The notes beneath the pieces were generated by a model that was given only the letters and a program-made list of their open reading frames with translations, did no database searches and was not told the origin of the DNA. A program made the position numbers and the translations under genes. A DNA stretch of 64,000 bases, taken from the NCBI RefSeq assembly GCF_017406825.1, contig NZ_JAFQXT010000040.1, positions 1 through 64,000 of the forward strand. The letters are read 5' to 3'. This DNA comes from Methanobrevibacter sp. (GTDB lineage: Archaea > Methanobacteriota > Methanobacteria > Methanobacteriales > Methanobacteriaceae). Below, one piece after another: positions 11,762 through 48,916 of this stretch. How positions within the stretch are numbered: the stretch's first letter is position 1; the number at the start of each line of letters is the position of its first letter.

Positions 11762-12400
11762 ATGATTGAAGATAATATACGTATTCTCAGGCAAGCTGCA
11801 AAATACACCACATCCGAGAATTATCAAATTCAAAAGGATTGGTGTGTGATTGCGGGAAATGTTGATTTAATTGATGATATGGCTTATAAAGCCATCGCTT
11901 CAAATCATAAAATCAACATATTGTTCAGGGAACATGTAATTCTTAAGGATGGCAGTTTCGACAAGAAATTTGATTTCATCATGCTTCATGGAAACTCATT
12001 GATCTTCAATGATTTTAAAAACGAAACTCAAAAACGCGGTGGAGCATTCATTCAGATTTCAAAAACTTATCTGAATGAAGAACCTAATATGATGGTATTT
12101 GTGGGTCCCGATAATGTAATCAGGAACACAGTGTCCGTTATTGATAAATCCAATATATCGATTTCAATCATTAAAGAGTCTCAAACCACTAATTTCATTG
12201 ATATAGATCTTAGCAGTGATGTTAGGTTGCCAAACTTCATTAAGTCTGCTCTTAAACCATTCTACAATGCGAATGAAATTGTTCTGTCAACAATTTTAAT
12301 TTCCATTGAAAGAGATGGTGATGTTGGAAAAGTTCAAAGCATAGCTACATCTAATAAAATTTTCGTTATCGATTTCAGAGACATTGTAACGGAGGATTAA
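11762..12400 (+). CDS. Protein of unknown function, co-transcribed with mreB
   Basis: The 212-residue soluble protein has no motif I recognise. It begins MIEDNIRILRQAAKY and has alternating hydrophobic and charged stretches that suggest a mixed alpha/beta fold, without membrane segments or cysteine clusters. It ends two bases before the start of the MreB-like gene, and the ribosome site of mreB (GGAGG) lies inside its last codons, so the two are almost certainly translated from one message. A role linked to the actin-like filament is therefore likely by context only. Confidence 0.7.
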   Translation: MIEDNIRILRQAAKYTTSENYQIQKDWCVIAGNVDLIDDMAYKAIASNHKINILFREHVILKDGSFDKKFDFIMLHGNSLIFNDFKNETQKRGGAFIQISKTYLNEEPNMMVFVGPDNVIRNTVSVIDKSNISISIIKESQTTNFIDIDLSSDVRLPNFIKSALKPFYNANEIVLSTILISIERDGDVGKVQSIATSNKIFVIDFRDIVTED

Positions 12401-12402
12401 TC

Positions 12403-13476
12403 ATGAATATTTTTGGAAATGAAGAGGAAATACCACAAACTGAAGACACTAAAGTTATCAGTAACAGTTTAGGAATTGATTTAGGAACTTTAAATACTGT
12501 AATTGCAAAACCATCAGGGGATAAATTTGATTTATACCAAATTCCTTCTGTTGTTGCAGTTAAAAAAGATGATCCGACTGAAGTTTTAGCGGTTGGTGAA
12601 GAAGCTAAAAGAATGCTTGGAAGAACTCCTGAAGATATTCTTGCAGTCAGACCTTTGAAAAAAGGAGTCATTGAAAATGTTGCACAGGCACAGGCATTAC
12701 TCATTAAAGCGATGCAAATCGGTATTAATGAAGGCGAAACTGTAGGAAGAATTGTCATAGGTATTCCTGGAGATGCATCCGAAGTTGAAAAAAATGCTGC
12801 AGAAGAAATCGGAAGAAAAGCCGGAGCACAAAACATTTTAGTAATCAGTGAAGGATTGGCCGCAGCCATTGGTGCAGGTTTGCCTATAGCAGAACCGAAC
12901 GGCACTATGGTTATAGATATTGGTGCAGGTTCAACCGACATTGTAATCATTTCTCTTGGCGGCATCAATGATATTGAAACTGTTAGATGTGGTGGAGACG
13001 ATATAGATGCTAAAATTGTTGAACTTGTAGCAGAAAGATACGATGTAGCGATAGGTATTCATGATGCGGAAGCTGCAAAAATTGAAGTTGGAATGATTCA
13101 CTGTTCCGAACAAATTGAAAATTTAAGTGTTGAAGTAATCGGTAAATCCTTAGAGACTAACAGACCTAAAAAGGTCGTAATCGATTCAATGCTCGTTGCA
13201 GATGCGGTAGAACCATACATGCAAAAGATTGTTGACGGATTAAATGTGATTTTAGAAAGATTGTCCCCTGAATTAATGATGGGCGTTTACAACAATTCTG
13301 TTGCAGTCGGAGGAAGTTCAAGACTTCGCGGATTAAAAGAAAGAGTCTTTGATGAAATTTCCATACCAATAGAAATTTCTGAAGATCCAATGACAGTTGT
13401 AGCGAAAGGTACTGCCATTGTTGCCGCTGAACCTTTAGCATTAGAACCTGAAGTCCGTCTTAGGGCTATGAAATAA
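12403..13476 (+). CDS. mreB: MreB-like actin-family protein
   Basis: The 357-residue protein has the actin/Hsp70 ATPase motifs: phosphate 1 GIDLGTLNT near residue 25, phosphate 2 VIDIGAGSTDIVIISLGG near residue 170, and the adenosine motif GGSSRLRGL near residue 305. The VVAVKKDDPTEVLAVGEEAKRMLGR section is typical of MreB, the rod-shape filament protein. Such proteins occur in pseudomurein-containing methanogens, where a role in wall growth is inferred. It follows the preceding unknown gene by 2 bases. The C-terminal tail after the last actin motif is short. Confidence 0.88.
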   Translation: MNIFGNEEEIPQTEDTKVISNSLGIDLGTLNTVIAKPSGDKFDLYQIPSVVAVKKDDPTEVLAVGEEAKRMLGRTPEDILAVRPLKKGVIENVAQAQALLIKAMQIGINEGETVGRIVIGIPGDASEVEKNAAEEIGRKAGAQNILVISEGLAAAIGAGLPIAEPNGTMVIDIGAGSTDIVIISLGGINDIETVRCGGDDIDAKIVELVAERYDVAIGIHDAEAAKIEVGMIHCSEQIENLSVEVIGKSLETNRPKKVVIDSMLVADAVEPYMQKIVDGLNVILERLSPELMMGVYNNSVAVGGSSRLRGLKERVFDEISIPIEISEDPMTVVAKGTAIVAAEPLALEPEVRLRAMK

Positions 13477-13479
13477 ATT

Positions 13480-13516
13480 TATTTTATTTCTCTTCTTTTT
13501 TTTATTATTTTTTTTG
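13480..13516 (+). terminator. T-tract terminator after mreB
   Basis: Several T-runs of up to nine lie directly after the mreB stop and before rnhB, with no stable stem-loop, matching archaeal oligo-T termination. Confidence 0.45.
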
Positions 13517-13522
13517 ATTTTT

Positions 13523-14137
13523 ATGGATATTTTAGGCATTGATGAGGCAGGCAGAGGATCTGTTTTGGGACCTCTGGTTATTGCAGGCGTAATTATTCCT
13601 GAAAAGATGGAAAAAGTTCTTGAAAGAATGGGCGTCAAGGATTCAAAGAAATTAAATCCAAATCGCCGAACTATCCTGTCCCGTAAATTGAAGAAAATGT
13701 TTGAATATGACATCATCGTTATAACTGCTCGTGAAATTGACGAGATGAGGGCGGATGGCATTAATCTTAATGAGATAGAAAAGAATGCGATGGAAGAATT
13801 AATTTTAAGGTTAAATCCTGAAAAGGCCATTGTTGATGCTGTTGATGTGAAGGCCGAAAGATTTCAGGAAAATCTTAGAAAAGACACAGGATTTGATGTT
13901 ATAGCCGAACACAAAGCGGATGATAATTATATTCAAGTTGGTGCCGCTTCCATTATCGCAAAGGCTGAAAGGGATGCCCAGATTGCGGATATCAATAAGG
14001 AATTCATTAAATCCGGAGGGATTGGTTCCGGTTATCCGTCAGACCCGACAACAAAAAAATTCCTAAGCAATTACACATATGATGAAATGCCCGATTTTGT
14101 TAGGAGGTCATGGAATACGGTGGCTAAAATGAAATAA
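13523..14137 (+). CDS. rnhB: Ribonuclease HII
   Basis: This enzyme of 204 residues cuts RNA of RNA-DNA hybrids and removes ribonucleotides from DNA. The start MDILGIDEAGRGSVLGPLVIAG holds the first catalytic Asp and Glu (DEAGRG); further acidic residues are in KKLNPNRR-following IVDAVD and in the EHKADDNY motif near residue 130, the standard type 2 RNase H set. The end SGYPSDPTTKKFL is typical. The ATG at 13523 fits the conserved start. No Shine-Dalgarno is visible because the upstream DNA is a T-tract. Confidence 0.93.
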   Translation: MDILGIDEAGRGSVLGPLVIAGVIIPEKMEKVLERMGVKDSKKLNPNRRTILSRKLKKMFEYDIIVITAREIDEMRADGINLNEIEKNAMEELILRLNPEKAIVDAVDVKAERFQENLRKDTGFDVIAEHKADDNYIQVGAASIIAKAERDAQIADINKEFIKSGGIGSGYPSDPTTKKFLSNYTYDEMPDFVRRSWNTVAKMK

Positions 14138-14236
14138 TTCCAAAAATCGCCTATTTTTCAATAAATATTTAAGTATATGTATTAATAAAATATTCTTATA
14201 AATGATTTTTTGATAATTATATGATAAGGGATAACT

Positions 14237-15076
14237 ATGATTACTGAGTATATTATGCCTTTTATTGATGGAATAATGGATATCTTTACTCAGGGAGGAA
14301 TTATCACGTACATAATCCTCTTTGTAGGTATTTACGGTTTGATTATTTCATTAAGAAAAATTGCATATCTTAAAAAGATTAGTAAAGTCGATACCACTGA
14401 AATATTCGGTGTAGTAACAGCATCAATGGAGAGAGGAGGTGCTGTCGAAGCTTTAAAACAGATTAACGGTTTTAAAAATCCTATTTCTAAAATTGTTTCC
14501 GAAACTTTGAAAATCGGTTATAAAAATAAGACAGAAGTTGAGGAAAGTATGGAACAGATTTTCATTGTTGAAGTTGCTAAAATGACCAAAGGATTAAATA
14601 CCCTCAAGACTTTAACTGAACTTGCTCCATTTTTGGGTTTGATCGGTACTGTTATAGGTATCTGGATGACTTTCAAATCATTGGGTGTTCATCCTGATTC
14701 CGCTGCAATGGCGGAAGGTATCTATGTGGCTTTGACAACTACTATCATGGGTCTTTTAGTGGCTATTGTGTTATTGCCTATGCATACTTATATCCAAACT
14801 CTCATTGAGGCGGAAATGGATAAGATTGAACTTGCTACAAAAATGACCAATTGGGGATTCGCAGTTGTAAAAGTCAGAGTCGATTCCAATGTCGAATGTG
14901 CTCTTGAAGCTTTACAAGAGGCAGATGGTGTCGTTAACACCAGGCTGATTTCGGATCCTTATGCAAACATTAAGGTTTCGTTCAAGCCAAGTATGCTGGA
15001 TAAAAGTATCGCAAATATTATTTTAGAGAAATGTAATGTTAATGCTGAGATTACTGAAAGTAAACTAAGACAATAA
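14237..15076 (+). CDS. MotA/TolQ/ExbB-family proton channel protein
   Basis: The 279-residue protein has a hydrophobic segment near residues 15-38, a cytoplasmic region, then two close segments near 132-156 and 165-188 (ELAPFLGLIGTVIGIWMTFKSLG and VALTTTIMGLLVAIVLLP), the hallmark of the ExbB/TolQ channel. A C-terminal extension of about 80 residues is unusual for ExbB and is soluble. In bacteria these use proton flow to energise envelope proteins. The next gene, 9 bases downstream, encodes the ExbD-like partner. Its client in this single-membrane archaeon is unknown. Confidence 0.85.
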   Translation: MITEYIMPFIDGIMDIFTQGGIITYIILFVGIYGLIISLRKIAYLKKISKVDTTEIFGVVTASMERGGAVEALKQINGFKNPISKIVSETLKIGYKNKTEVEESMEQIFIVEVAKMTKGLNTLKTLTELAPFLGLIGTVIGIWMTFKSLGVHPDSAAMAEGIYVALTTTIMGLLVAIVLLPMHTYIQTLIEAEMDKIELATKMTNWGFAVVKVRVDSNVECALEALQEADGVVNTRLISDPYANIKVSFKPSMLDKSIANIILEKCNVNAEITESKLRQ

Positions 15077-15085
15077 GGTGATTGC

Positions 15086-15499
15086 ATGGCGATTGATGTA
15101 AAAAAACATAAGAAAAAGTTTTTAGATCAAAAACCAAGTATCAATTTAGTTCCTTTCATTGATATTTTATTCACAATAATGATTTTCTTAGTGGTTACAA
15201 GTAATTTTTCAGCTACTGATTTTCAAGCGGACGCTGCAGACGATGTTGAAGATGGCGGCGGAAAGCCTAATGTCACTGATGTTTCTGGGGACCAGGAATA
15301 TTATGTGGTGCCGGTGGCCAATTTGCATAAGGTTACCGTCAATGGCCAGGACAGGTCGGATGCGATTTCGGGAAGTTCTGTAGCTGTACATGCAAATGTT
15401 ATTGATAACGGTCAAGTTATTATTAAACCGGGTGAAATCATCATTGAAACCCCATCAGGAGTTTCAGTAAATGATGCCGTAATACGTCCGGAACTTTAA
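15086..15499 (+). CDS. ExbD/TolR-like protein
   Basis: The 137-residue protein has a short basic cytoplasmic start, one transmembrane segment near residues 19-42 (INLVPFIDILFTIMIFLVV) holding the conserved proton-carrying aspartate at residue 26, and a C-terminal external domain. Pairing with the ExbB-like gene 9 bases upstream supports a proton-driven complex. The external part differs from classical ExbD: an acidic linker is followed by a beta-rich region ending in VNDAVIRPEL, and no TonB-like gene is visible nearby. A GGTGAT ribosome site lies before the ATG. Confidence 0.82.
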   Translation: MAIDVKKHKKKFLDQKPSINLVPFIDILFTIMIFLVVTSNFSATDFQADAADDVEDGGGKPNVTDVSGDQEYYVVPVANLHKVTVNGQDRSDAISGSSVAVHANVIDNGQVIIKPGEIIIETPSGVSVNDAVIRPEL

Positions 15500-15515
15500 A
15501 AATTGAGGAATGAAA

Positions 15516-16142
15516 ATGTATACAGGAAGAATTCTATCAGCAGGTATGAATAGTGAAGGTAAACCTTTTGTGGCATACAGGGTATCAAGCAGGTCATTTC
15601 CTAATAGAAAATGCATGAATCATGACGATCATGCGGCTGTTGTTCCAATAGAAGGTTTTGAAAAGGACATTTATAAGAACGCTTATATCTCTTACAATTC
15701 TATTAAAATTGTGGATGATAAAATAGTTGTTTCAAACGGTTCTCAAACCGATGTCATAGCGGATAAAATCGCTGTGGGAATGAATATCAGGGATGCAATG
15801 GCATATTCATTACTTACCATGGATTATGAAAAAGACGATTATAACACTCCAAGAATTGCCGCAGCTGTCACATCCACAGACAATGAGGATGAATATGAGT
15901 GTTATATAGGCATTGTAAACGATAATAAAATTTTAGTCGAACAGGTTCCATATGGTGAAGCAGCATTCATTTCAACATATGGCAGCCAGGTGCCCGACAA
16001 AGTCGATTTTGAAGCTAAAACTTCCGAGGAAGCTGCAAAATACATTTTTGACGAGGGCGTTTTTGCAAATTATGAAAAACCGGTCACATCATGTGCCGCC
16101 GTTTTTGATGGAAAATGGACTACTGCAGTCTATAATCCATAA
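15516..16142 (+). CDS. purO: Archaeal IMP cyclohydrolase
   Basis: PurO closes FAICAR to inosine monophosphate, the last step of purine synthesis in many archaea, replacing bacterial PurH. The start [31 protein letters not shown] is diagnostic, and the length of 208 residues fits. The ATG at 15516 is preferred over one six bases upstream because TGAGGA has suitable spacing to it. It follows the ExbD-like gene by 16 bases and may share its transcript, although the functions are unrelated. Confidence 0.92.
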
Positions 16143-16177
16143 TTTTTTCTTTTTTTTAAAACTATCAGATGATTATT

Positions 16178-16942
16178 ATGAGTATTGAATTATTTGGATT
16201 AGAGAATATTCCTATTGTTGACGGCAATAGCGACATTTCTCGAATTATAAAGGAAGCTGTTGAAAAACAGGGTTGCGGTTTAAATCATGGAGACATTGTT
16301 TTAATTGCCGAAACCTTAATTTCAAAAGCTGAAGAAAATTTCATCATTTTAGATGATTTGAATCCTTCCGATTTGGCTGTTGAACTTGCAGAAAAAGCCG
16401 ACAAGGACCCGAAACTGGTTGAAGCTATTCTGAATGAATCTAATGAAGTTGTCCGCGTAGGCCCTAAATTCATCATAACTGAAACAAAACAGGGATTTGT
16501 CTGTGCCAATGCGGGTATCGATGAGTCAAATGTCGGGGACGGTCTGGCCACTCCAATGCCAAAGGATGCGGATAAATCCGCATGCAAGATTCGCGAATTT
16601 TTAGAAAATGAATTCGATGAAGAAATTGCAGTAATAATCACTGACACCCAGGGAAGGGCATTCAGATTCGGAGCTATCGGGACTGCAATAGGCTGTTCCG
16701 GAATTTCACCTATCTGGAAACGTGTCGGTGAAAAAGATTTATACGGCAGGGAACTGGAAACAACTGAAATTGCAACCTGCGATGAATTGTCCGCAGCGGC
16801 ATCCCTTATTATGGGACAGGCTGATGAAGGACTCCCAGTTGTTATTATCCGAGGATTCGAAAGCTTTGATATTTTGAGAAACACTGATTCAAATATTAAA
16901 CCTGTTTTAATGCCAAAAGAAGCGGACGTATTTAGGAAGTAG
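16178..16942 (+). CDS. cofE: Coenzyme F420:L-glutamate ligase
   Basis: CofE adds glutamates to F420-0 in a GTP-dependent reaction, finishing the F420 side chain. The 254-residue product has the family stretches [15 protein letters not shown] near residue 40, [10 protein letters not shown] near 115, [23 protein letters not shown] near 155 and [13 protein letters not shown] near the end. It lies 5 bases before cofD, so the two F420 genes form an operon. The ATG at 16178 fits the usual start. Confidence 0.93.
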
Positions 16943-16947
16943 ATCTC

Positions 16948-17853
16948 ATGATTACTGTATTATCTGGAGGAACAGGCACTCCAAAACTACTTCAAGGCCT
17001 TAAGGAAATTGTGGATCCCGGAGATTTGACAATTATCGTAAACACTTTGGAAAACAATTATTTTTCCGGCGTTTATGTCTCAGCAGACATTGACACTGTT
17101 TTATATACGATGTCAGATATGATAAATGACGAATTCTGGTATGGAGTTAAGGATGACACATTCATCACTCATGAAAGGCTTGAGGAGTTGGGCTGCGGCG
17201 AATTGCTGAGAATAGGGGATATCGACCGCGCTACAAAAATACAAAAGACCCAGCTGATGCAAAAGCATGGCCTTAAAAAAGCATGCGAAATTCAGGCAAG
17301 AAATATGGGAATCGAATCCAGAATCCTGCCGATGAGTGAAGAGCAGTCCGACATCAAGATAGTCACTGACATCGGCGAGTTGGAATTCCATGATTTCTTA
17401 ATCAAATACCAGTCCGAACCGGAAGTTCTGGATTTAAAGTTTTCCGAAGTCAGTCCGGCTGAAGGAATCATTGATGCGATTAGAAACTCCGATGCAGTAA
17501 TTATAGGACCGTCAAATCCGATAACTTCAATTTCACCAATAATATCTCTTGAAGGCGTTCGTGAAGCATTAAAGGATGCTCATGTTATTGCCGTTTCACC
17601 TATCATAGGTTCTGATGCAGTTTCAGGTCCGGCAAGCAAATTCATGGAAGCTTTAGGCGTTGAAGTTTCTTCAGCAGGTGTTGCAAAATTATATCAGGAT
17701 TTTTTAGACAACATTGTCATTGACAATAAAGATTCCAATCTGAAATCACAATTAAATCAAATAGTTAATAAGGTAACAGTTACAAATACAATAATGAATA
17801 GTTTAGATGCTAAGAAAAATTTAGCACAAATTATTATAGATAGTATTCCTTAG
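16948..17853 (+). CDS. cofD: 2-phospho-L-lactate transferase
   Basis: CofD joins the activated lactyl/enolpyruvyl-guanosine group to the deazaflavin Fo, making F420-0 or its dehydro form. The 301-residue protein starts ITVLSGGTGTPKLLQGL, the nucleotide-binding loop of the family, followed by ADIDTVLYTMSDMINDE and GDIDRATKIQKTQLM. The later GPSNPITSISPII stretch is also typical. It follows cofE by 5 bases. In this organism F420 carries electrons from hydrogenase to the methanogenesis reductases. Confidence 0.93.
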   Translation: MITVLSGGTGTPKLLQGLKEIVDPGDLTIIVNTLENNYFSGVYVSADIDTVLYTMSDMINDEFWYGVKDDTFITHERLEELGCGELLRIGDIDRATKIQKTQLMQKHGLKKACEIQARNMGIESRILPMSEEQSDIKIVTDIGELEFHDFLIKYQSEPEVLDLKFSEVSPAEGIIDAIRNSDAVIIGPSNPITSISPIISLEGVREALKDAHVIAVSPIIGSDAVSGPASKFMEALGVEVSSAGVAKLYQDFLDNIVIDNKDSNLKSQLNQIVNKVTVTNTIMNSLDAKKNLAQIIIDSIP

Positions 17854-17874
17854 TAAGAAAGAGGCGATTAGTAA

Positions 17875-18636
17875 ATGATACAAATGACTTTAATACAAAT
17901 TGACAATTATGGTCCTTGGACTGTAACTCCAAAGCCAAGAACTGAATCTGATTTACAGATGTTGCAGGCGAACTTATTTGCAGACTTGAACAATCATTTC
18001 GGAAACAAAAAAGGATTAGTTTTCTTTACAAGATTCGACAACCTGCTTGCAGTTTCAAACGGTTTAAATGAAGAGGATCATTTAAGAATTCAAAGGTCAA
18101 TTAGAAACAGATACCCAATCACTGTAAGTATGGGTGTTGGCGCTGCTGAAACTCCTCATGAAGCTCAAAAATTGGCAACAATTGCTCTTCAAAAGGCAGG
18201 AAGCGCTCAATCAGGGGAAAGAAAAGAAATTTTGGCTGTTGACAGTTTGGTAAGTGAAGAGGACAGTTTTGTTCAGGCAGCCCACATTGACATTAACAGC
18301 GTCACAGAAACCTTAACAGACATTGAATCAGCTTTTGACACTAGTTTCATGGTTAACAAGGCTCAACATTACCTGATGACAAAATTGATTAAAAAAGGTG
18401 CATTGCTGTTCTTCATCGGTGGGGATAACTTCATGTCTCCGTGCAACGGTTTATCCGAACAGGAAATTGAGGACATTATGGTTGAAATCGATGAAGAGAT
18501 AGGTATCAAACTTAAAGCAGGTATCGGCAGAGGTAAAAACGCTGAAGATGCAGCTTACATGGCCGATATTGGCCTTGAAGAAATCAGGGCACACAATAAT
18601 GAAATGTGGACTTGGGTTGTTGAAAAAGAATACTGA
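17875..18636 (+). CDS. gch3: GTP cyclohydrolase III
   Basis: This archaeal enzyme opens GTP to formylamino-ribosylamino-pyrimidinone phosphate, feeding riboflavin and, through it, the deazaflavin Fo. The 253-residue protein starts [19 protein letters not shown]-like and contains the duplicated nucleotide-cyclase-like halves ([14 protein letters not shown] near residue 60 and [14 protein letters not shown] near 185), characteristic of the family. GAGGCGAT precedes the ATG at 17875; a second ATG three codons on is possible. It sits right after cofD, in keeping with F420 supply. Confidence 0.9.
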
Positions 18637-18641
18637 GGAAT

Positions 18642-19376
18642 ATGATGATTAGGGTAGTTGCTCCAATGGCCGGAATAACTAACGCCGAATTCCTGAACAA
18701 GGTTATTCCATACGGTTTTGATGTAGCTACCTTGGGCGGATACAGTCTAGACGCCCCTACAATCGATGCAAGTAGGAAAATTATTGAAAGGGGAAGAGGG
18801 GAATTTGATTTTCCTCTAAATGAAATTTTTTCACATATTGAAAATGAAGTTGATTCTATAAAGAAAGTTCACAAAGGTGTTAAAGTCTCGGCCAATGTGC
18901 GCGCAACAACTACACGGCCAATCATTGATGTGGGAAATATTAGGGATTTGGACATTGTTGAAATTAATTGTCATTGTCGCCAAAAGGAAATAATGGATAT
19001 TGGCTGTGGTCAGGAAATGTTGAATCGTCAGGATTTAGGCGATTTCATATCAGAAGTTGCAGATAATGTGGACAGTGAAGTTTCGGTTAAAATAAGAGCC
19101 AACGTTGAAGGGACCGACACTTTAGAATTGGCCGGTTTAATTGAGGATGCAGGTGCGGATTATCTTCACATTGACGCCATGAGGAAGGGCGTTTTTGAAG
19201 CGGACTGGAAACTTTTATCTGAAATCTGCAATAATGTAAATATTAAGGTTATCGGAAATAATTCTGTTAACAGTCAAGCAAATCTCCAAAAAATGATTGA
19301 TACCGGTGTTGATGGATTTTCAATCGCTCGTTCACTTATTTCAGGAAAACTTGATTTTGATATTGCTGGTTTTTAA
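18642..19376 (+). CDS. NifR3/Dus-like TIM-barrel protein of methanogens
   Basis: The 244-residue protein begins with VVAPMAGITNAEF, the flavin-binding start of the Dus (tRNA-dihydrouridine synthase) barrel, and ends with the phosphate-binding ISARSL-like region GFSIARSLISG. Between them VSANVRATT, HIDAMRKGVF and KVIGNNSV follow the barrel order. The region where Dus enzymes carry their catalytic NxGCP cysteine reads EINCHCRQKE instead, so it is probably not a normal Dus. Such barrels are fused to the marker-9 domain in some methanogens; here that domain is encoded at 21865-22347. Function unknown. Confidence 0.75.
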   Translation: MMIRVVAPMAGITNAEFLNKVIPYGFDVATLGGYSLDAPTIDASRKIIERGRGEFDFPLNEIFSHIENEVDSIKKVHKGVKVSANVRATTTRPIIDVGNIRDLDIVEINCHCRQKEIMDIGCGQEMLNRQDLGDFISEVADNVDSEVSVKIRANVEGTDTLELAGLIEDAGADYLHIDAMRKGVFEADWKLLSEICNNVNIKVIGNNSVNSQANLQKMIDTGVDGFSIARSLISGKLDFDIAGF

Positions 19377-19449
19377 TTTTTTTAAAACAATTGTTATTAG
19401 AAAGTATTATTAATAGATTAAAATAAAAATTATTTCAATAGGTGATTAC

Positions 19450-21048
19450 ATGGATTTTATAACTCTTAAGAATATTACCAAAACCTTTGATGATGTTGAT
19501 GTTCTTAAAGATATTAATTTAAAGATTAACGAAGGTGAAACTTTAGGTATATTGGGACGTAGTGGAAGCGGTAAATCCGTTTTAATCAACATGCTTAGAG
19601 GGACTAAAGAATACAAACCGGATTCAGGAAATATCATAATGAATCTCGCTGTCTGTCCGGACTGTTTGGCTGTAGAATCCCCGTCTCATGTCGGTGAAAC
19701 ATGCCATTGTGGCGGAACATATGAAGCTAAAGAAGTTGATTTCTTCAATGCTGAAAGGAAATTATTTGCAAGTATCAAAAGAAGGATTTCCATCATGCTG
19801 CAACGTAACTTCGCTTTATATGATGAAGAGACTGTTATTGAAAATGTAATGAGGGCAATGCCTGAAGATGTCGAATATGAAGAAGGATTATATTCAGCAT
19901 TAGAATTATTGGAAATGGTTCAGATGAACCACAGGATCACTCACGTCGCTCGTGATTTAAGTGGTGGGGAAAAACAGAGAGTTGTACTTGCAAGGCAGCT
20001 TGCTAAAAACCCAATGATGTTTTTAGCAGACGAACCGACCGGTACATTGGATCCTCAAACAGCAGTGAAACTCCACAATACATTAAAAGAAGGTGTCAAA
20101 GATGAAGGCATCACTATGTTAATCACTTCTCACTGGCCTGAAGTTATGACTGAACTTGCAGATAATGTAATATGGTTAGAAAATGGTCAAATAAAGGAAG
20201 AAGGAGAACCCCATGTAGTTGTAGACCATTTCATGGAAACAGTTCCTGTTCCTAAAAAACCTGAAGTCCCTGAGTTCGGCGAACCTGAAGTTGTACTCGA
20301 AGATGTTAAAAAACATTACTACTCTATTGAAAGAGGAGTAGTTAAAGCTGTTGATGGAATTAGTTTAACAATCAATAAAGAGGAAATTTTCGGATTGGTA
20401 GGTTTAAGCGGTTCCGGTAAAACTACCACAACCAGAATGTTGATGGGATTGACCGAACCAAGTAGCGGAGACATTAAAATCAAACTTGGTGACGAATGGA
20501 TTGACATGACAAAAGTAGGCCCTCTTAACCGTGGCCGTATCATGCCTTATATTGGTTTATTGCACCAGGAATATTCATTATATCCTCACAGAACAATCTT
20601 GGGTAACCTGACTGATGCAATCAGTTTAGATTTGCCTGCCGAATTCGGTAAGATTCAAGCTATTCATGCTTTGGTTACTGTAGGATTCGATGAAAAGGAC
20701 GCTACATTGATTCTAGACAAATATCCTGATCAGTTAAGTGTAGGAGAAAAGCATAGGATTGCTCTGGCACAGGTTTTAATCAAAGAGCCTAAGCTCATAG
20801 TTTTGGATGAGCCAACAGGTACAATGGACCCTATTACTCGTGTTAACGTTACCGATTCAATTCTAAAAGCACGTGCCGAATTGGAACAGACATTCATAAT
20901 CGTTTCCCACGATATGGATTTCGTATTGGATGTATGTGACAGGGCCGCTTTGATGAGAGGAGGAAAACTCCTTGATGTCGGCACTCCTGAAGAAATAGTT
21001 GATCAGTTAACTCCTGATGAGAAAGAAGATATGCTTAAAGACAGATAG
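19450..21048 (+). CDS. atwA: Methyl-coenzyme M reductase system component A2
   Basis: AtwA is the ATP-binding protein needed for reductive activation of the nickel centre of methyl-CoM reductase. The 532-residue protein has two ABC ATPase domains: Walker A GRSGSGKS near residue 35 with signature LSGGEKQR near 177, and GLSGSGKT near 318 with signature LSVGEKHR near 428. Between the first Walker A and signature is a methanogen-specific insert with CPDC and CHCGG, probably a zinc or iron-sulfur site. AGGTGAT precedes the start. No membrane partner gene is adjacent, consistent with a soluble role. Confidence 0.92.
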
Positions 21049-42861: not shown

Positions 42862-44529
42862 ATGTATAACAATAATAAAATTTTGGTAGTTATTCCTGCA
42901 AGGGGAGGTTCAAAGGGAATTCCCCGTAAAAACATCCGTTTATTGGATAACAAGCCTTTAATTTCATATTCCATTGGCATTGCAAAGTCATCAGAATATG
43001 TTGATGATATTGTGGTAACTACTGATGATTCTGAAATTGCATTGCTATCGGAAAAGTTTGGAGCAAGTGTAATAAGGCGTTCTGAAGAACTATCTGGGGA
43101 TGAAGTTCCACTCGATCCGGTTATATATGATGCATTAGTGAAAAAAGAAAAATTGGCCTTAGACGAGTATGATATTGTAATTACGCTACAGCCAACTTCA
43201 CCATTATTAAAACCGTCAACTTTAGACAAGGCTATTGAGAAATTTGAAGATTTTGGCGTTGATAGCGTTCTTTCAGTTGTGGATGATAGGCATTTGAGCT
43301 GGGGATATGATGAGAATAATGACAGTTATTTCCCAAATTACATAGAAAGGAAAAACAGACAATTCTTGCCTAAGGATTTCAGGGAAACCGGAGCTATACT
43401 TGCCAGCCGCAGACAGTTTGTAAATGAGATGTCCCGTCTTGGAACCAATATCGATTTGATTGAAGTGTCCCGTGAGGAAAGTGTGGACATCGACAATTAT
43501 GAGGATTGGTGGATTGCTGAAAATTATCTGCAAAAGAAAAAAATAGCCATTGTTGTCAATGCTTATGATGAGATTGGAACCAGCTATATTTATCGATGTT
43601 TATCAATTGCTTCAAGATTGATTTTCCATGATGTCTTATTTTTGCTTGATGAGGCTCATCAGCTTGGAATCGACATCATAGAAAATTATAACTATCCGTT
43701 ACAGCTTTATGATGGAAAGGATGATTTAGTAAATAAATTAAGAGAATATTCCCCTCAAATTGTTATCAATGACATTCTGGATACTTCAGAGGAATATATT
43801 TCCATTTTAAAAGAGGAAGGATATTTCGTTGTCAATTTTGAGGATTTGGGTGCTGGTACTAAAGTGGCGGATGTTGTTTTTGATGCATTATATGAGCATG
43901 AAATTGGTCAGCAAAGCAATATTTTCACAGGGTACAAGTACTATGTTTTAAGAGATGAGTTCTACTTCCAGCCTCACAAGATTATCACACAAAAAGTAAA
44001 CAATGTTCTAATTGCCTTCAGCGGCAATGACCAGAATAACCTAACTGAAAAGGTTCTTGAATCTATTCTATCAACTAATTTTGATGGAAGAATTAATGTT
44101 GTTGTGGGAGTAGGTTATGATGATGTTGAAGGGCTGGTTGAGAAGTATGAATATAATCCGGCTATTCAGATTTATAAGAATGTTCCAAATATCAGTGAAT
44201 TCATGTTTAAAGCTGATGTTGTATTTACTTCAGCGGGAAAGACAATGTATGAGATTTGCTCACTAGGAGTTCCGACAATTTGCTTATGTAAGGATGAACG
44301 TGAAATCACCCATGTCTTTGCAAATGAGAGCAATGGTTTTATTAATATGGGATTGGGTGAAGCTATTGAAAGGCAGGACATAATTGAAACATTCATTAAA
44401 GTAGTTAATGATTATGAATTAAGAGTTGAAATGAATAAGAAAATGTTGGCCATAGATTTAAAAAACGGCTTTGAGAACGTTTGGTCTGTTATTAGCGAGG
44501 AATACAGGAAATTTTTATTAAAGAGGTAG
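42862..44529 (+). CDS. CMP-nonulosonate synthetase fused to PseG-like GT-B domain
   Basis: Residues 1-230 form an acylneuraminate cytidylyltransferase: VIPARGGSKGIPRKNIRLLD near residue 9 (CTP loop), LQPTSPLL near 109 and RETGAIL near 173. Residues from about 233 on form a PseG-like GT-B domain, with FSGNDQNNLTEKVLE and VFTSAGKTMYEICSLGVPTICLC. The GxGHxxRCL motif that carries the catalytic His in PseG reads GTSYIYRCL, so the hydrolase may be inactive. Expected reaction of the first half: CTP plus a sialic-acid-type sugar to CMP-sugar. NeuB follows 3 bases downstream. Confidence 0.85.
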   Translation: MYNNNKILVVIPARGGSKGIPRKNIRLLDNKPLISYSIGIAKSSEYVDDIVVTTDDSEIALLSEKFGASVIRRSEELSGDEVPLDPVIYDALVKKEKLALDEYDIVITLQPTSPLLKPSTLDKAIEKFEDFGVDSVLSVVDDRHLSWGYDENNDSYFPNYIERKNRQFLPKDFRETGAILASRRQFVNEMSRLGTNIDLIEVSREESVDIDNYEDWWIAENYLQKKKIAIVVNAYDEIGTSYIYRCLSIASRLIFHDVLFLLDEAHQLGIDIIENYNYPLQLYDGKDDLVNKLREYSPQIVINDILDTSEEYISILKEEGYFVVNFEDLGAGTKVADVVFDALYEHEIGQQSNIFTGYKYYVLRDEFYFQPHKIITQKVNNVLIAFSGNDQNNLTEKVLESILSTNFDGRINVVVGVGYDDVEGLVEKYEYNPAIQIYKNVPNISEFMFKADVVFTSAGKTMYEICSLGVPTICLCKDEREITHVFANESNGFINMGLGEAIERQDIIETFIKVVNDYELRVEMNKKMLAIDLKNGFENVWSVISEEYRKFLLKR

Positions 44530-44532
44530 TGA

Positions 44533-45570
44533 ATGAATATATTTAATAGATATCCTTATTTGATTGCCGATATTGATGTTAACTTTTATGACATTGCCGG
44601 AAAGGAAGGCATGTCAGATATGGCTGCTGCAAAATTCATGATTGATGAAGCAAAGGAATGCGGCATAGATGCGGTTAAATTTCAGTCATTCAAAACAGAA
44701 ACATTAATATCAAAAAATTACCCAAACGATTTGAAATTATCTGAAACACCCGCTTCATATAAAAAATTTGATAAGTTCGGTGTTGGAGAGTATAGGGAGC
44801 TTGCCGAGTATTGTCAACAGATAGGAATCAAATTTTTATCAACTCCCTTTGATTTTGAGTCTGCAGATTACTTGGATGAGTTTATGGATATTTATAAAAT
44901 ATCATCTTCAGATTTAACAAATATTCCTTTCATTAAACATATAGCAAGTAAAAATAAGCCTATTATACTTTCAACAGGAGCCGCCACATTGAACGAAATC
45001 AAGCAGGCTGTAAATGCTATTGAAGAAGTTTCTACTGTGGATATTGCGATTATGCATTCTGTATCATCCTACCCTACTGAATATGAGGATGCAAATCTGT
45101 TAATGATTAAGGATTTAGTTAAAAATTTTCCAGGTTATGAAATAGGCTATTCTGACAACACTAAGCCAGATAAGGACATGGTGGTCTTAACAACTGCTTA
45201 TAATTATGGTGCACGCATTCTAGAAAAACCTTTTACTACTGATAAGAATTTGTCAGGCAATGCCCATTGCTATTCAATGGATCCTGATGATGTCATCAAA
45301 TTAAAATGGAATTTATTGTTTTTATCTAAAATTAATGGTATGAGAAATAAGCAGCCGGTTATCTGTGAATCTTCATCAAGACGTTATGCAAGAAGGTCAA
45401 TTGTTGCAATCAGAGACATTAAAAAGGGAGAAGCTATATCTGCCGATGATTTGACTTTCAAACGTCCTGGAACTGGAATTTCTCCATCAAGAATAGGTGA
45501 AATTATTGGAAAAACAGTTAAAGATGATATTCTGGAAGATACTCTGCTTGATTTTGATATGGTTGAATGA
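44533..45570 (+). CDS. neuB: Nonulosonic acid synthase (NeuB-type)
   Basis: The 345-residue enzyme condenses PEP with a six-carbon amino sugar to form a sialic-acid-type sugar. The TIM barrel has DAVKFQSFKTETL near residue 50, STPFDFESADYL near 100 and KISSSDLTNIPF near 135; the C-terminal 60 residues are an SAF (antifreeze-like) domain with RSIVAIRDIKKGEAISADDL. It follows the fused synthetase by 3 bases. Whether the product is Neu5Ac, legionaminic or pseudaminic acid cannot be told from this sequence. Confidence 0.9.
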   Translation: MNIFNRYPYLIADIDVNFYDIAGKEGMSDMAAAKFMIDEAKECGIDAVKFQSFKTETLISKNYPNDLKLSETPASYKKFDKFGVGEYRELAEYCQQIGIKFLSTPFDFESADYLDEFMDIYKISSSDLTNIPFIKHIASKNKPIILSTGAATLNEIKQAVNAIEEVSTVDIAIMHSVSSYPTEYEDANLLMIKDLVKNFPGYEIGYSDNTKPDKDMVVLTTAYNYGARILEKPFTTDKNLSGNAHCYSMDPDDVIKLKWNLLFLSKINGMRNKQPVICESSSRRYARRSIVAIRDIKKGEAISADDLTFKRPGTGISPSRIGEIIGKTVKDDILEDTLLDFDMVE

Positions 45571-45583
45571 TTTTGGTGTTTAA

Positions 45584-46999
45584 ATGACAGTAAGCGTTAA
45601 AGAAATTTGTGAAGTACTTTTTGATTTGGAAGAAAAGTATGATCTAAACTATCAGGAAATTCAGGGCTGTTTCGCATGGCAGATGATGAGATTCTCTGTT
45701 TATCTTGAGCTTACAAAGAAATTAGGCATTTTTGGTGCAGTTCAACAAAGACAACTATCTCTTTTTGATAAAGTCAAATCATTCATCCCCTTTTTAAAAA
45801 ATAGTTTGCTTTTCAATCCCCTCAGCGGAAATTATACAAAGGATATTCTGATTTTTGACCATCCTAGAAAAGTGATTTTCGAAGATGAATTTGTTGATAT
45901 CTACAGTTATTTTATAGTTGACTTTATTAAGGGCAATTATTCATTTGAAGTGTTGGAATCAACATATTTCAATGAACATTTTACCAAAAGGCAGGATTAT
46001 ATTAAATACCTAGATAGGATTGAATTGGGTTCATATATTTATAAGAAACGCAATAAGCTCGAATTCACTCCTTCAGAAAAAAAATTAATAAATGACATCA
46101 AGATGGAGCTTAAGAATGCATTTGATGTGGATGTCGATATTGAGAGCATATTGACAAGGAAAATTCTAAATTTCCAATATGATTATGAGATGTATACTGA
46201 ATTGTTTAAAAAAAGAAATCCTAAAATGGTTTTTGTAGTGGTGGCTTATCTAAATCAGGCTATTGTTGCGGCTGCAAAAGACTTGGGGATTGATGCAATT
46301 GAATTGCAACATGGAACAATTTCAGATTATCATTTAGGTTATTCATATCCTCCAAAAACAAGAAAAAGAGGAGAAATTGTATATTTCCCAAATAAGATAT
46401 TTTCTTTTGGAGATTATTGGATAAATGATGAAACATCCCCAATATCCAAGCAAAATGTCATTCCTATCGGATTTCCATATTTTGAAGTCCAATCTAAGGA
46501 TTTTATCAATATTAAACCTCATGATAATCAAATATTATTCATATCCCAGGGAGCTATAGGCAAATATCTGTCAAAATTGGCATATGAATTCGCATGTGAA
46601 ATGAAGGATTTCAAAATTGTCTATAAATTACATTCTGGGGAATACGAAACCTGGAGGGAAAATTATCCATATCTTTTGAATGATTTGGAAAATTTTGAAG
46701 TGATTGACAATAGTGAAATTCCATTATATCAGTTATTTGCAGAATCCAGTTATCAAGTTGGGGCATTTTCAACGGCCATCTACGAAGGCTTGATGTTTAA
46801 TTGCAAAACATTCATTGTTGATGTTCCGGGTATAGAGCATATCTCAGATTTAATTGACAATGGTTATGTATGCAAAATCACTGATAGCGCCGATTTGATT
46901 GGTATGTTGGACACATTCTCTCCAAAGGATTATGATAAAGATTTCTTTTTCAAAAATTTTGACACCTCTCTATTTAATGAGGTGATTGACAATGAATGA
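45584..46999 (+). CDS. Probable GT-B glycosyltransferase in the nonulosonate cassette
   Basis: The 471-residue soluble protein has no firmly recognised family. Features suggest GT-B or capsule-type transferase: AIELQHGTISDYHLGYSYP near residue 245, a KLHSGEYETW stretch near 352 and YQVGAFSTAIYEGLMF near 395, resembling the nucleotide-sugar end of GT-B enzymes. It sits between neuB and the flippase, overlapping the latter by 8 bases. The best guess is the transferase that uses the CMP-nonulosonate made by the two genes upstream; this is inference. Confidence 0.6.
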   Translation: MTVSVKEICEVLFDLEEKYDLNYQEIQGCFAWQMMRFSVYLELTKKLGIFGAVQQRQLSLFDKVKSFIPFLKNSLLFNPLSGNYTKDILIFDHPRKVIFEDEFVDIYSYFIVDFIKGNYSFEVLESTYFNEHFTKRQDYIKYLDRIELGSYIYKKRNKLEFTPSEKKLINDIKMELKNAFDVDVDIESILTRKILNFQYDYEMYTELFKKRNPKMVFVVVAYLNQAIVAAAKDLGIDAIELQHGTISDYHLGYSYPPKTRKRGEIVYFPNKIFSFGDYWINDETSPISKQNVIPIGFPYFEVQSKDFINIKPHDNQILFISQGAIGKYLSKLAYEFACEMKDFKIVYKLHSGEYETWRENYPYLLNDLENFEVIDNSEIPLYQLFAESSYQVGAFSTAIYEGLMFNCKTFIVDVPGIEHISDLIDNGYVCKITDSADLIGMLDTFSPKDYDKDFFFKNFDTSLFNEVIDNE

Positions 47000-48428
47000 G
47001 TATGCCAATTTCATAAAGAGGATTGGGGTAGTGGGTATTGCAAATATATTGATCTCCCTAAGTGGATTGATATTTATTCCAATTATTACAAAAAGTTTCT
47101 CGACTGCCGATTATGGGGTTTGGGCACAGGTCAATACATTTGTCTCATTGATTCCAAATTTTGTCAATTTGGGTCTTCCATATACAATGGTTAGGTTTTT
47201 ATCGGCTGAAAAGGACCCTGCTATTATCAGACAATCCTTTTATTCAATGTTGCTGTTAGTTTTAGCTTCAACATTAATCATGAGCGCAGTATTTCTAATA
47301 TTCTCAAATCAGATTGCCGCTGCATTGTTTGATGGAAGCATGCAAATAATGTATATTGTTATTGCAATGTCATTTTTCGCATGTTTGGATGTTATGCTGT
47401 TAAGCTATTTCAGAACATTCCAGCAAATACTTATCTATTCAACATTTTTAGTATTGCAGACTTATATCGGAGTGGTATTCAGCATTATCTTAACTTGGAT
47501 GCATCAGCCTATTGATATAGTTATTTTAGGACGTTTCTTCGGATTCTTCTTCGTATTTGTTGCAATGGCTATTCTAATTGTACGGGAATTGGGAATCACT
47601 ACAAAATTCAAGAGTTTGAAGGAGGAATTGAAATTCGCCATTCCGACAGTTCCGAATAGTGTCTCTTCATGGGTAGTGGATTCAAGCGACAAATTAGTAA
47701 TAGGTGTTTTCCTCGGTTCTGCAGCAGTAGGATGCTATTCTCCGGGTTATGCATTGGGGAATCTTCTTATAATGTTTTTAACTCCATTTGCAGTGTTGCT
47801 TCCTGCAGTGTTGCCGGAATATTATGAAAAAGGGGACATGGCTACGGTCAATACATTTTTAACCTATTCCATGAAATATTATCTTTTAATTACTATTCCT
47901 GCATGTGTCGGCATAAGTTTGCTTTCAAAACCTCTGCTGTATATGTTGACCACAACCATTATTGCGGACAACGGTTTTATGATAACTCCAGTAGTTGCAC
48001 TTGGAGCAGTATTTATGGGAATTTATGGAATTGTTAACAATATCATCATTTTAGAGAAAAGAACAACAATTTTAGCACATATATGGATTGCAGTAGCAAT
48101 TCTAAACGTTGTTTTAAATATCTTGGCCGTGCCGTATATTGGAATTTATGGTGCAGGTCTTACAACTTTGCTTTGCTATTTCTTTGCATTTGCAGTAACT
48201 CTAATTTATTCCAAAAAATATGCTAGCTTGCCTTTTGATTATAAATCAATTGTTAAAATAATAGTGTCATCAGTTATTATGGGCATTTTTGTATTCATTG
48301 CTAATCCAACAGGAATCATTAATATCTTAATTGTTATTGCTGTTGCCGCAGTGATTTACTTTGTAGCCCTGATTCTATTAAAAGGAATAGATAAAAAAGA
48401 AGTTGATTTGATCAAAAGCATGATTTAA
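46992..48428 (+). CDS. Wzx-type polysaccharide flippase
   Basis: The 478-residue integral membrane protein has about 12-14 hydrophobic helices, starting FIKRIGVVGIANILISLSGLIFIPIITKSFSTADYGVWAQVN, the typical start of the oligosaccharide flippase (MATE-like MOP) family. It would move lipid-linked glycans across the membrane. The ATG at 46992 has AGGTGAT at good spacing and overlaps the previous gene by 8 bases. Its stop overlaps the convergent acyltransferase by 4 bases. Confidence 0.85.
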   Translation: MNEYANFIKRIGVVGIANILISLSGLIFIPIITKSFSTADYGVWAQVNTFVSLIPNFVNLGLPYTMVRFLSAEKDPAIIRQSFYSMLLLVLASTLIMSAVFLIFSNQIAAALFDGSMQIMYIVIAMSFFACLDVMLLSYFRTFQQILIYSTFLVLQTYIGVVFSIILTWMHQPIDIVILGRFFGFFFVFVAMAILIVRELGITTKFKSLKEELKFAIPTVPNSVSSWVVDSSDKLVIGVFLGSAAVGCYSPGYALGNLLIMFLTPFAVLLPAVLPEYYEKGDMATVNTFLTYSMKYYLLITIPACVGISLLSKPLLYMLTTTIIADNGFMITPVVALGAVFMGIYGIVNNIIILEKRTTILAHIWIAVAILNVVLNILAVPYIGIYGAGLTTLLCYFFAFAVTLIYSKKYASLPFDYKSIVKIIVSSVIMGIFVFIANPTGIINILIVIAVAAVIYFVALILLKGIDKKEVDLIKSMI

Positions 48429-48916
48429 TGGAATTTGCCTTCTTTTTTCAATTTTTCGTAGTGGTCAATATCACGATATTTGAATACCTTTGCAGGATGC
48501 CCTCCAGCTATTCCATATTTTTCAATGTCTTTGACTACGGTACTTCCGGCCTGGATTATCGCTCCTTCTCCAATTCTTACGCCTGGAAGTATTGTAACGC
48601 GATTTCCCAGCCATACGTTATCTTCAATAATCACGTCTTTGGAGATGATGGTGTCATCATATGGAATCGCATTTCCTTTATCGTAATTGTGGATGCTTGT
48701 GATTATCATGCACTCGATGCCTGAATGGAAATTGTCCCCGATGATTACATTGCCTTTTCCTTGAATTTTCATTCCATTAAAATTAACATTATTGCCTAAA
48801 GTGGTATTTGGCGTAACATAGCTTTCACCATTTACCTTAAGGTTATTCCCATAGCTTTTTGCAACCTTTTGGCATCTATGCAGATAAAATTTTTTCTTAA
48901 ATTTGTCAAAAATCAT
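48425..48916 (-). CDS. Hexapeptide-repeat acyltransferase
   Basis: The 163-residue protein has a left-handed beta-helix with repeats such as NNVNFNGMKIQGKGNVIIGDNF and DVIIEDNVWLGNRVTILPGVRIGEGAIIQAGSTVVKD, characteristic of maltose/CysE-type O-acetyltransferases; the motif VTPNTTLG sets the first coil. The C-terminal GIAGGHPAKVFKYRD is the usual acetyl-CoA tail. It probably acetylates a surface sugar. It converges on the flippase with a 4-base overlap. Confidence 0.85.
   Translation of the reverse strand: MIFDKFKKKFYLHRCQKVAKSYGNNLKVNGESYVTPNTTLGNNVNFNGMKIQGKGNVIIGDNFHSGIECMIITSIHNYDKGNAIPYDDTIISKDVIIEDNVWLGNRVTILPGVRIGEGAIIQAGSTVVKDIEKYGIAGGHPAKVFKYRDIDHYEKLKKEGKFH

Follow-up and report, generated by a model that had tools for sequence, protein, structure and literature searches.

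Membrane complexes of the TolQ-TolR and ExbB-ExbD type (PF01618 and PF02472) combine an A subunit that has three transmembrane segments and two threonines with a B subunit that has one transmembrane segment and an aspartate, the two encoded by adjacent genes, and the best-known of them span two membranes. A second system bears on the actin-like protein MreB: in Cluster C of pseudomurein archaea, as described in the portion of PMC11915815 consulted, OG0001176 invariably precedes MreB (OG0000094), and the cluster also encodes an RcpC/CpaB-like protein and sortase E. OG0001176 is there termed a coiled coil, with a role in cell shape or gene regulation suggested, and a passage of PMC7613921 states that the role of archaeal MreB “remains to be examined.” Here, we analyzed a 64,000-nucleotide stretch of a Methanobrevibacter sp. 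genome (contig NZ_JAFQXT010000040.1, positions 1 to 64,000, forward strand; hereafter, the window) in which both kinds of gene lie in a single plus-strand run at 11762-15499. We read this run, with a probability of about 0.7, as two independent units side by side, one made of mreB and the gene upstream of it (here called unk212) and the other of exbB-like and exbD-like genes with purO, so that the motor would be independent of MreB. The features concerned are as follows.

11762..12400, plus strand: unk212, a 212-residue protein without a Pfam or NCBIfam match, modeled as two tandem ACT-like ferredoxin folds
12403..13476, plus strand: mreB, actin-like (PF06723, 320 bits, E value 1.7e-95)
13514..14137, plus strand: rnhB, ribonuclease HII (PF01351, 191 bits; TIGR00729, 223 bits, over the cut-off)
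14237..15076, plus strand: exbB-like A subunit of the MotA/TolQ/ExbB family, three transmembrane segments and a C-terminal extension (PF01618, 98.6 bits)
14822..15073, plus strand: the C-terminal extension of the ExbB-like protein, a predicted ferredoxin-like fold of the heavy-metal-associated (HMA) type without CxxC (model, Foldseek, VIA-align, and alignment)
15086..15499, plus strand: exbD-like B subunit, one transmembrane helix with Asp26 and an outer part of ~80 residues (PF02472, 32.6 bits)
15510..16142, plus strand: purO, IMP cyclohydrolase (PF07826, 221 bits)

The separation into two units rests on a survey of 151 Methanobacteriota genomes, in which MreB was searched by sequence at E 1e-25 and unk212 and this type of ExbB were searched by profile. 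The ExbB type is present in 130 genomes (133 matches less three, in G102, G121, and G096, which at E 5.5e-8 to 1.5e-7 fall at paralogue level and were scored as absent). ExbB and MreB occur together in 105 genomes, ExbB only in 25, MreB only in 13, and neither in 8. Among the 13 we have left G002, G050, and G096, which are without exbB; their contigs break off close to mreB or rnhB, so that we do not take the absence of exbB from them as real loss; in G057 the locus is probably absent from the assembly, since purO is missing too.

The dissociation runs both ways. Genus g3, which we assign to Methanosphaera, has ExbB in 20 of 20 genomes and MreB and unk212 in none (8 of these genomes are listed explicitly as misses, and the others were scored from their absence among the matches). 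In five g3 loci (L051, L052, L066, L068, and L069), the order CDP-OH gene-rnhB-exbB-exbD-purO is kept, and unk212 and mreB are gone from its middle. These loci also retain folB and a DUF515/RcpC-like gene beside the CDP-OH gene, and the sortase gene that adjoins the locus elsewhere was not detected in them. In the other direction, the complete genome G120, which we assign to Methanothermus fervidus, carries unk212-mreB-rnhB at one site and purO-cofE-cofD-gch3-dus-atwA at another, with no match to ExbB or ExbD. Because the wall of M. fervidus is described as pseudomurein (in the portion of PMC3035299 consulted), the ExbB/ExbD pair appears to be dispensable for such a wall. Genus g13 (26.4% guanine plus cytosine over nine loci) likewise has ExbB in 0 of 6 genomes and ExbD in 0 of the 5 searched; MreB is found in 5 of 6 and unk212-mreB in all four loci fetched (with rnhB in three). 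All 5 g13 genomes searched for purO have it, and neither exbB nor exbD adjoins it in the stretches fetched. Outside g3, one further genome (G101, genus g17, L043), 84% complete, has ExbB without MreB or unk212, either from a second loss or from an assembly gap.

Where both genes are present, their arrangement also shifts. Two genera have exbB inverted or relocated with respect to mreB, and exbB lies on the opposite strand in 14 of the 96 genomes with both on one contig (11 at 2-3 kb and 3 at 10-11 kb). In the fetched loci L034, L035, and L072, exbB-exbD-purO is inverted as one block, and purO is the neighbor that exbB-exbD retains across the rearrangements observed. With the units dissociating in both directions, nothing requires MreB and ExbBD to share a machine, and the survival of each half in the absence of its counterpart leaves such a machine unsupported. 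The first-pass annotation had proposed that the motor may drive pseudomurein growth or filament movement together with MreB. The channel residues (below) and the restriction of this ExbB type to the pseudomurein phylum agree with that proposal; the joint work with MreB is not supported. It had also named the same pair in archaea lacking both MreB and pseudomurein as evidence that would count against it; the pair does exist without MreB, although the archaea concerned are members of the pseudomurein phylum. The synteny comparison that it suggested shows a gene order repeated in most loci, but with mreB and exbB separable in g3, G120, g13, and the inversions.

The partner that follows MreB is, by the co-occurrence counts, unk212 rather than ExbB. 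MreB is found in 118 and unk212 in 117 of the 151 genomes, both in 115 and neither in 31, with MreB only in three (G104, G130, and G150) and unk212 only in two (G137 and G141), these five discordant assemblies being 62-83% complete. Moreover, in 112 of the 113 genomes that carry both on one contig, unk212 is followed directly by mreB in the same orientation, an adjacency that is stronger evidence for the link than the genome counts. We take OG0001176 of PMC11915815 to be unk212 by its position; the linkage of MreB to its upstream gene, as set out in the portion of that study consulted, is thus already published, and the Cluster C arrangement agrees with this locus. “ExbB” and “Methanosphaera” were not found in the main text of PMC11915815. 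The MreB of the window is, by its scores, a divergent member of its family, well over the PF06723 cut-off (320 bits versus 27) and below the NCBIfam subfamily cut-offs (PRK13927, 275.4 of 293; TIGR00904, 259.9 of 365.75).

By hydropathy, unk212 has no transmembrane segment. Its model (mean predicted local distance difference test [pLDDT] 81.7) shows two ferredoxin-like units, and tandem ACT chains (the SerB2 ACT pair, 1u8s, and 2nyi) come out on top in Foldseek. The likeness, two ferredoxin-like folds in tandem, is at the level of fold family and comes from a model; identity is low (8-12%), as is the whole-chain template-modeling score (0.27-0.29 of the query), and a Pfam listing of 17 families for 26 members, at E values up to 1, does not include ACT. 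In the model the protein looks like tandem ACT as well as other ferredoxin-like chains, whereas the authors of PMC11915815 describe OG0001176 as a coiled coil. The Foldseek and VIA lists returned common ferredoxin-like chains, and we drew no functional inference from them.

The ExbB-like protein is well over the PF01618 cut-off (98.6 versus 22.9 bits, residues 81-198), has three transmembrane segments by its hydropathy peaks, and its profile finds TolQ, ExbB, and MotA chains. The ExbD-like protein, with one transmembrane segment by hydropathy, passes PF02472 (32.6 versus 25.4 bits) over residues 15-58 only, corresponding to positions 4-47 of the 128 in the profile. Thr138 and Thr169 of ExbB, which align to the TolQ channel threonine motifs, are the same in all 24 sequences, and Asp26 of ExbD is invariant in 22 of 22, in line with the conserved aspartate first described; we take these three to be the channel residues. 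Neither protein reaches an NCBIfam equivalog cut-off (tolQ, 53.7 of 221 bits; exbB, 34.2 of 206.2; tolR, 18.2 of 127.3; exbD likewise not reached). In addition, two features set the pair apart from TolQ-TolR and ExbB-ExbD, namely, an HMA-like C-terminal domain on the A subunit and an unmatched outer part on the B subunit. An hhalign comparison with a canonical-looking ExbD, encoded beside ExbB on a Halobacteriota contig, aligned only 33 columns. The outer part is thus unlike known ExbD in sequence; being conserved within the group, it is probably functional.

About 80 residues of the ExbB-like protein lie past the PF01618 match, which confirms the 80-residue soluble extension first described, and we assume from the usual topology of the family that they are cytoplasmic. 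The C-terminal 84 residues, modeled alone (pLDDT 84.2), are predicted to form a beta-alpha-beta-beta-alpha-beta, ferredoxin-like fold of the HMA type: HMA chains lead the Foldseek results (E 3.7e-4, template-modeling score 0.71) and fill the top rows of VIA-align (Z 11.2, root-mean-square deviation 2.1, 72 residues). Metal binding was rejected as the default role because CxxC occurs in 0 of 24 sequences, which also have no invariant Cys. As Pfam HMA is, in addition, absent from the 16 families listed for 24 members at E values up to 5, docking is the more likely role. Additions of unassigned function at the N or C terminus are described for nonflagellar A subunits of bacterial “generic ion transporters” in the portion of PMC12505986 consulted; those subunits differ from the present one in being bacterial, and that portion does not mention an HMA-like addition.

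Within the genomes searched, the HMA-bearing ExbB is seen only in Methanobacteriota, since the weak matches found in 22 of 392 Halobacteriota genomes (E 1.7e-10 to 8e-6) stop before the extension, none of the 22 reaching past profile position 202. On plasmids, none of the 86 matching records covers 80% of the ExbB-like protein. Among the 12 Halobacteriota loci taken, several (L128, L132, L137, and L138) resemble the DUF2162-ExbB-DUF2149 triads (PF09930, PF01618, and PF09919) of methanogens and one (L127) resembles canonical ExbB-ExbD, as labeled by eye with one strand shown. These triads are similarly archaeal and place an ExbB-family subunit before a partner that seems to have one transmembrane segment, but they include a DUF2162 membrane protein and DUF2149 and are without an ExbD (PF02472) match or an HMA-like extension; identity is 23-29%. 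The genome from which the window comes (G000) has two such triads, on contigs C36 and C46 (L002 and L003); ExbB and DUF2149 exceed the Pfam cut-off in both, and DUF2162 exceeds it in one and falls short in the second. They are further putative ion-driven complexes. An antiphage, Zorya-like motor was also considered and rejected, as none of four proteins of the run had a PADLOC match at E 0.01. In the portion of the literature searched, we found no account of the present pair or of mreB loss in Methanosphaera.

All five genes first described in the run (an unknown gene, mreB, rnhB, and the ExbB-like and ExbD-like genes) are open reading frames at their reported coordinates; rnhB as listed starts with TTG, and an in-frame ATG lies three codons further on. 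The run extends past 15499 through purO, cofE, cofD, a GTP cyclohydrolase III gene, a dus-like gene, and an atwA-like gene, the last two named by eye. With 2 bp between unk212 and mreB, an AT-rich 99 bp between rnhB and exbB, 9 bp between exbB and exbD, and 10 bp between exbD and purO, the spacing suggests that exbB may open its own unit running on into purO and the coenzyme genes. The arrangement is far beyond chance, since ExbB is found in 16 of 19 genera and the gene order is repeated in most loci examined. Further along the window, the order cofE, cofD, GTP cyclohydrolase III, dus-like, and atwA-like (16169-21048) is kept in most genera and in G120, and 42862-48916 has the appearance of a surface-sugar cluster (NeuA-like, NeuB-like, flippase-like, and acyltransferase-like genes, named by eye).

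In the arrangement that we favor, MreB would act with the small soluble unk212, as a pair linked to cell shape. Separately, the most plausible reading of the ExbB/ExbD pair is a TolQR/ExbBD-type complex that is driven by ions and bears an unusual domain in the cytoplasm. It is encoded with purO and probably with the coenzyme genes that follow, and it would work without MreB. Ions would cross where ExbD Asp26 meets the ExbB threonine pair, and their passage would turn or shift ExbD relative to the ring of ExbB. On the cytoplasmic face, the HMA-like domains would be arranged in a ring that binds a partner or adjusts the channel, and the outer part of ExbD would reach outside the membrane to act on some wall or surface component. 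More specifically, and tentatively, the pair may be a wall or surface ion motor of pseudomurein methanogens, built in a single membrane from an ExbB ring that carries HMA-like docking domains in the cytoplasm and an ExbD that has an outer domain of its own, and independent of MreB, beside a two-protein system of MreB and its tandem ACT-like partner that was lost as rods became cocci in Methanosphaera.

Several points weigh against two independent units. The loss of unk212 and mreB in g3 was probably a single event, so the genome counts overweight it, and in one genome (G046, C184, L040), the single exception to the adjacency, the two genes lie 6.8 kb apart. The exbB gene lies within 3 kb downstream of mreB and in the same direction in 82 of the 96 same-contig genomes, so a loose or optional link between them is possible. 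The names of g3 and G120 rest on inference, and ion flow and assembly in the ExbB/ExbD pair, like rotation and the client, are inferred.

Among other explanations, it is unlikely, though it keeps some force, that the pair is an ion-gated sensor or regulator whose HMA-like ring relays the state of the membrane to enzymes in the cytoplasm, possibly the products of the neighboring purine and coenzyme genes. The tight spacing of exbB-exbD against purO and their joint movement, the presumably cytoplasmic extension with the fold of a binding domain, and the short outer part of ExbD that resembles no known ExbD would all suit such a device, but the motor-family channel residues have been conserved, and G120 retains purO, cofE, and cofD in the absence of exbB and exbD, as g13 retains purO. 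We consider it less probable still that the neighborhood is a frozen ancestral gene order, functionally meaningless even for unk212-mreB: cofE, cofD, gch3, dus, and atwA are indeed largely conserved without an obvious shared function, yet unk212-mreB survives changes of context (in G120, g13, and g5), and g3 has lost both genes together. A single machine of MreB and the ExbB/ExbD motor, for which the proximity of mreB and exbB and the confinement of this ExbB type to the pseudomurein phylum could be cited, is very improbable, as the comparative evidence weighs heavily against it, with ExbB kept without MreB throughout g3, MreB kept without the pair in G120 and g13, and the two genes on opposite strands in 14 genomes.

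If two independent units are indeed what the run encodes, the second would be an archaeal form of the TolQR/ExbBD scaffold that has no outer membrane to reach and carries an added cytoplasmic domain, and the scaffold would have uses that need no outer membrane. The first bears on the mechanism of archaeal MreB. Methanosphaera is coccoid and embedded among rod-shaped Methanobacterium (in the portion of PMC13135261 consulted), and a single conserved partner lost together with MreB in a coccoid genus nested among rods would offer a direct test of that mechanism.

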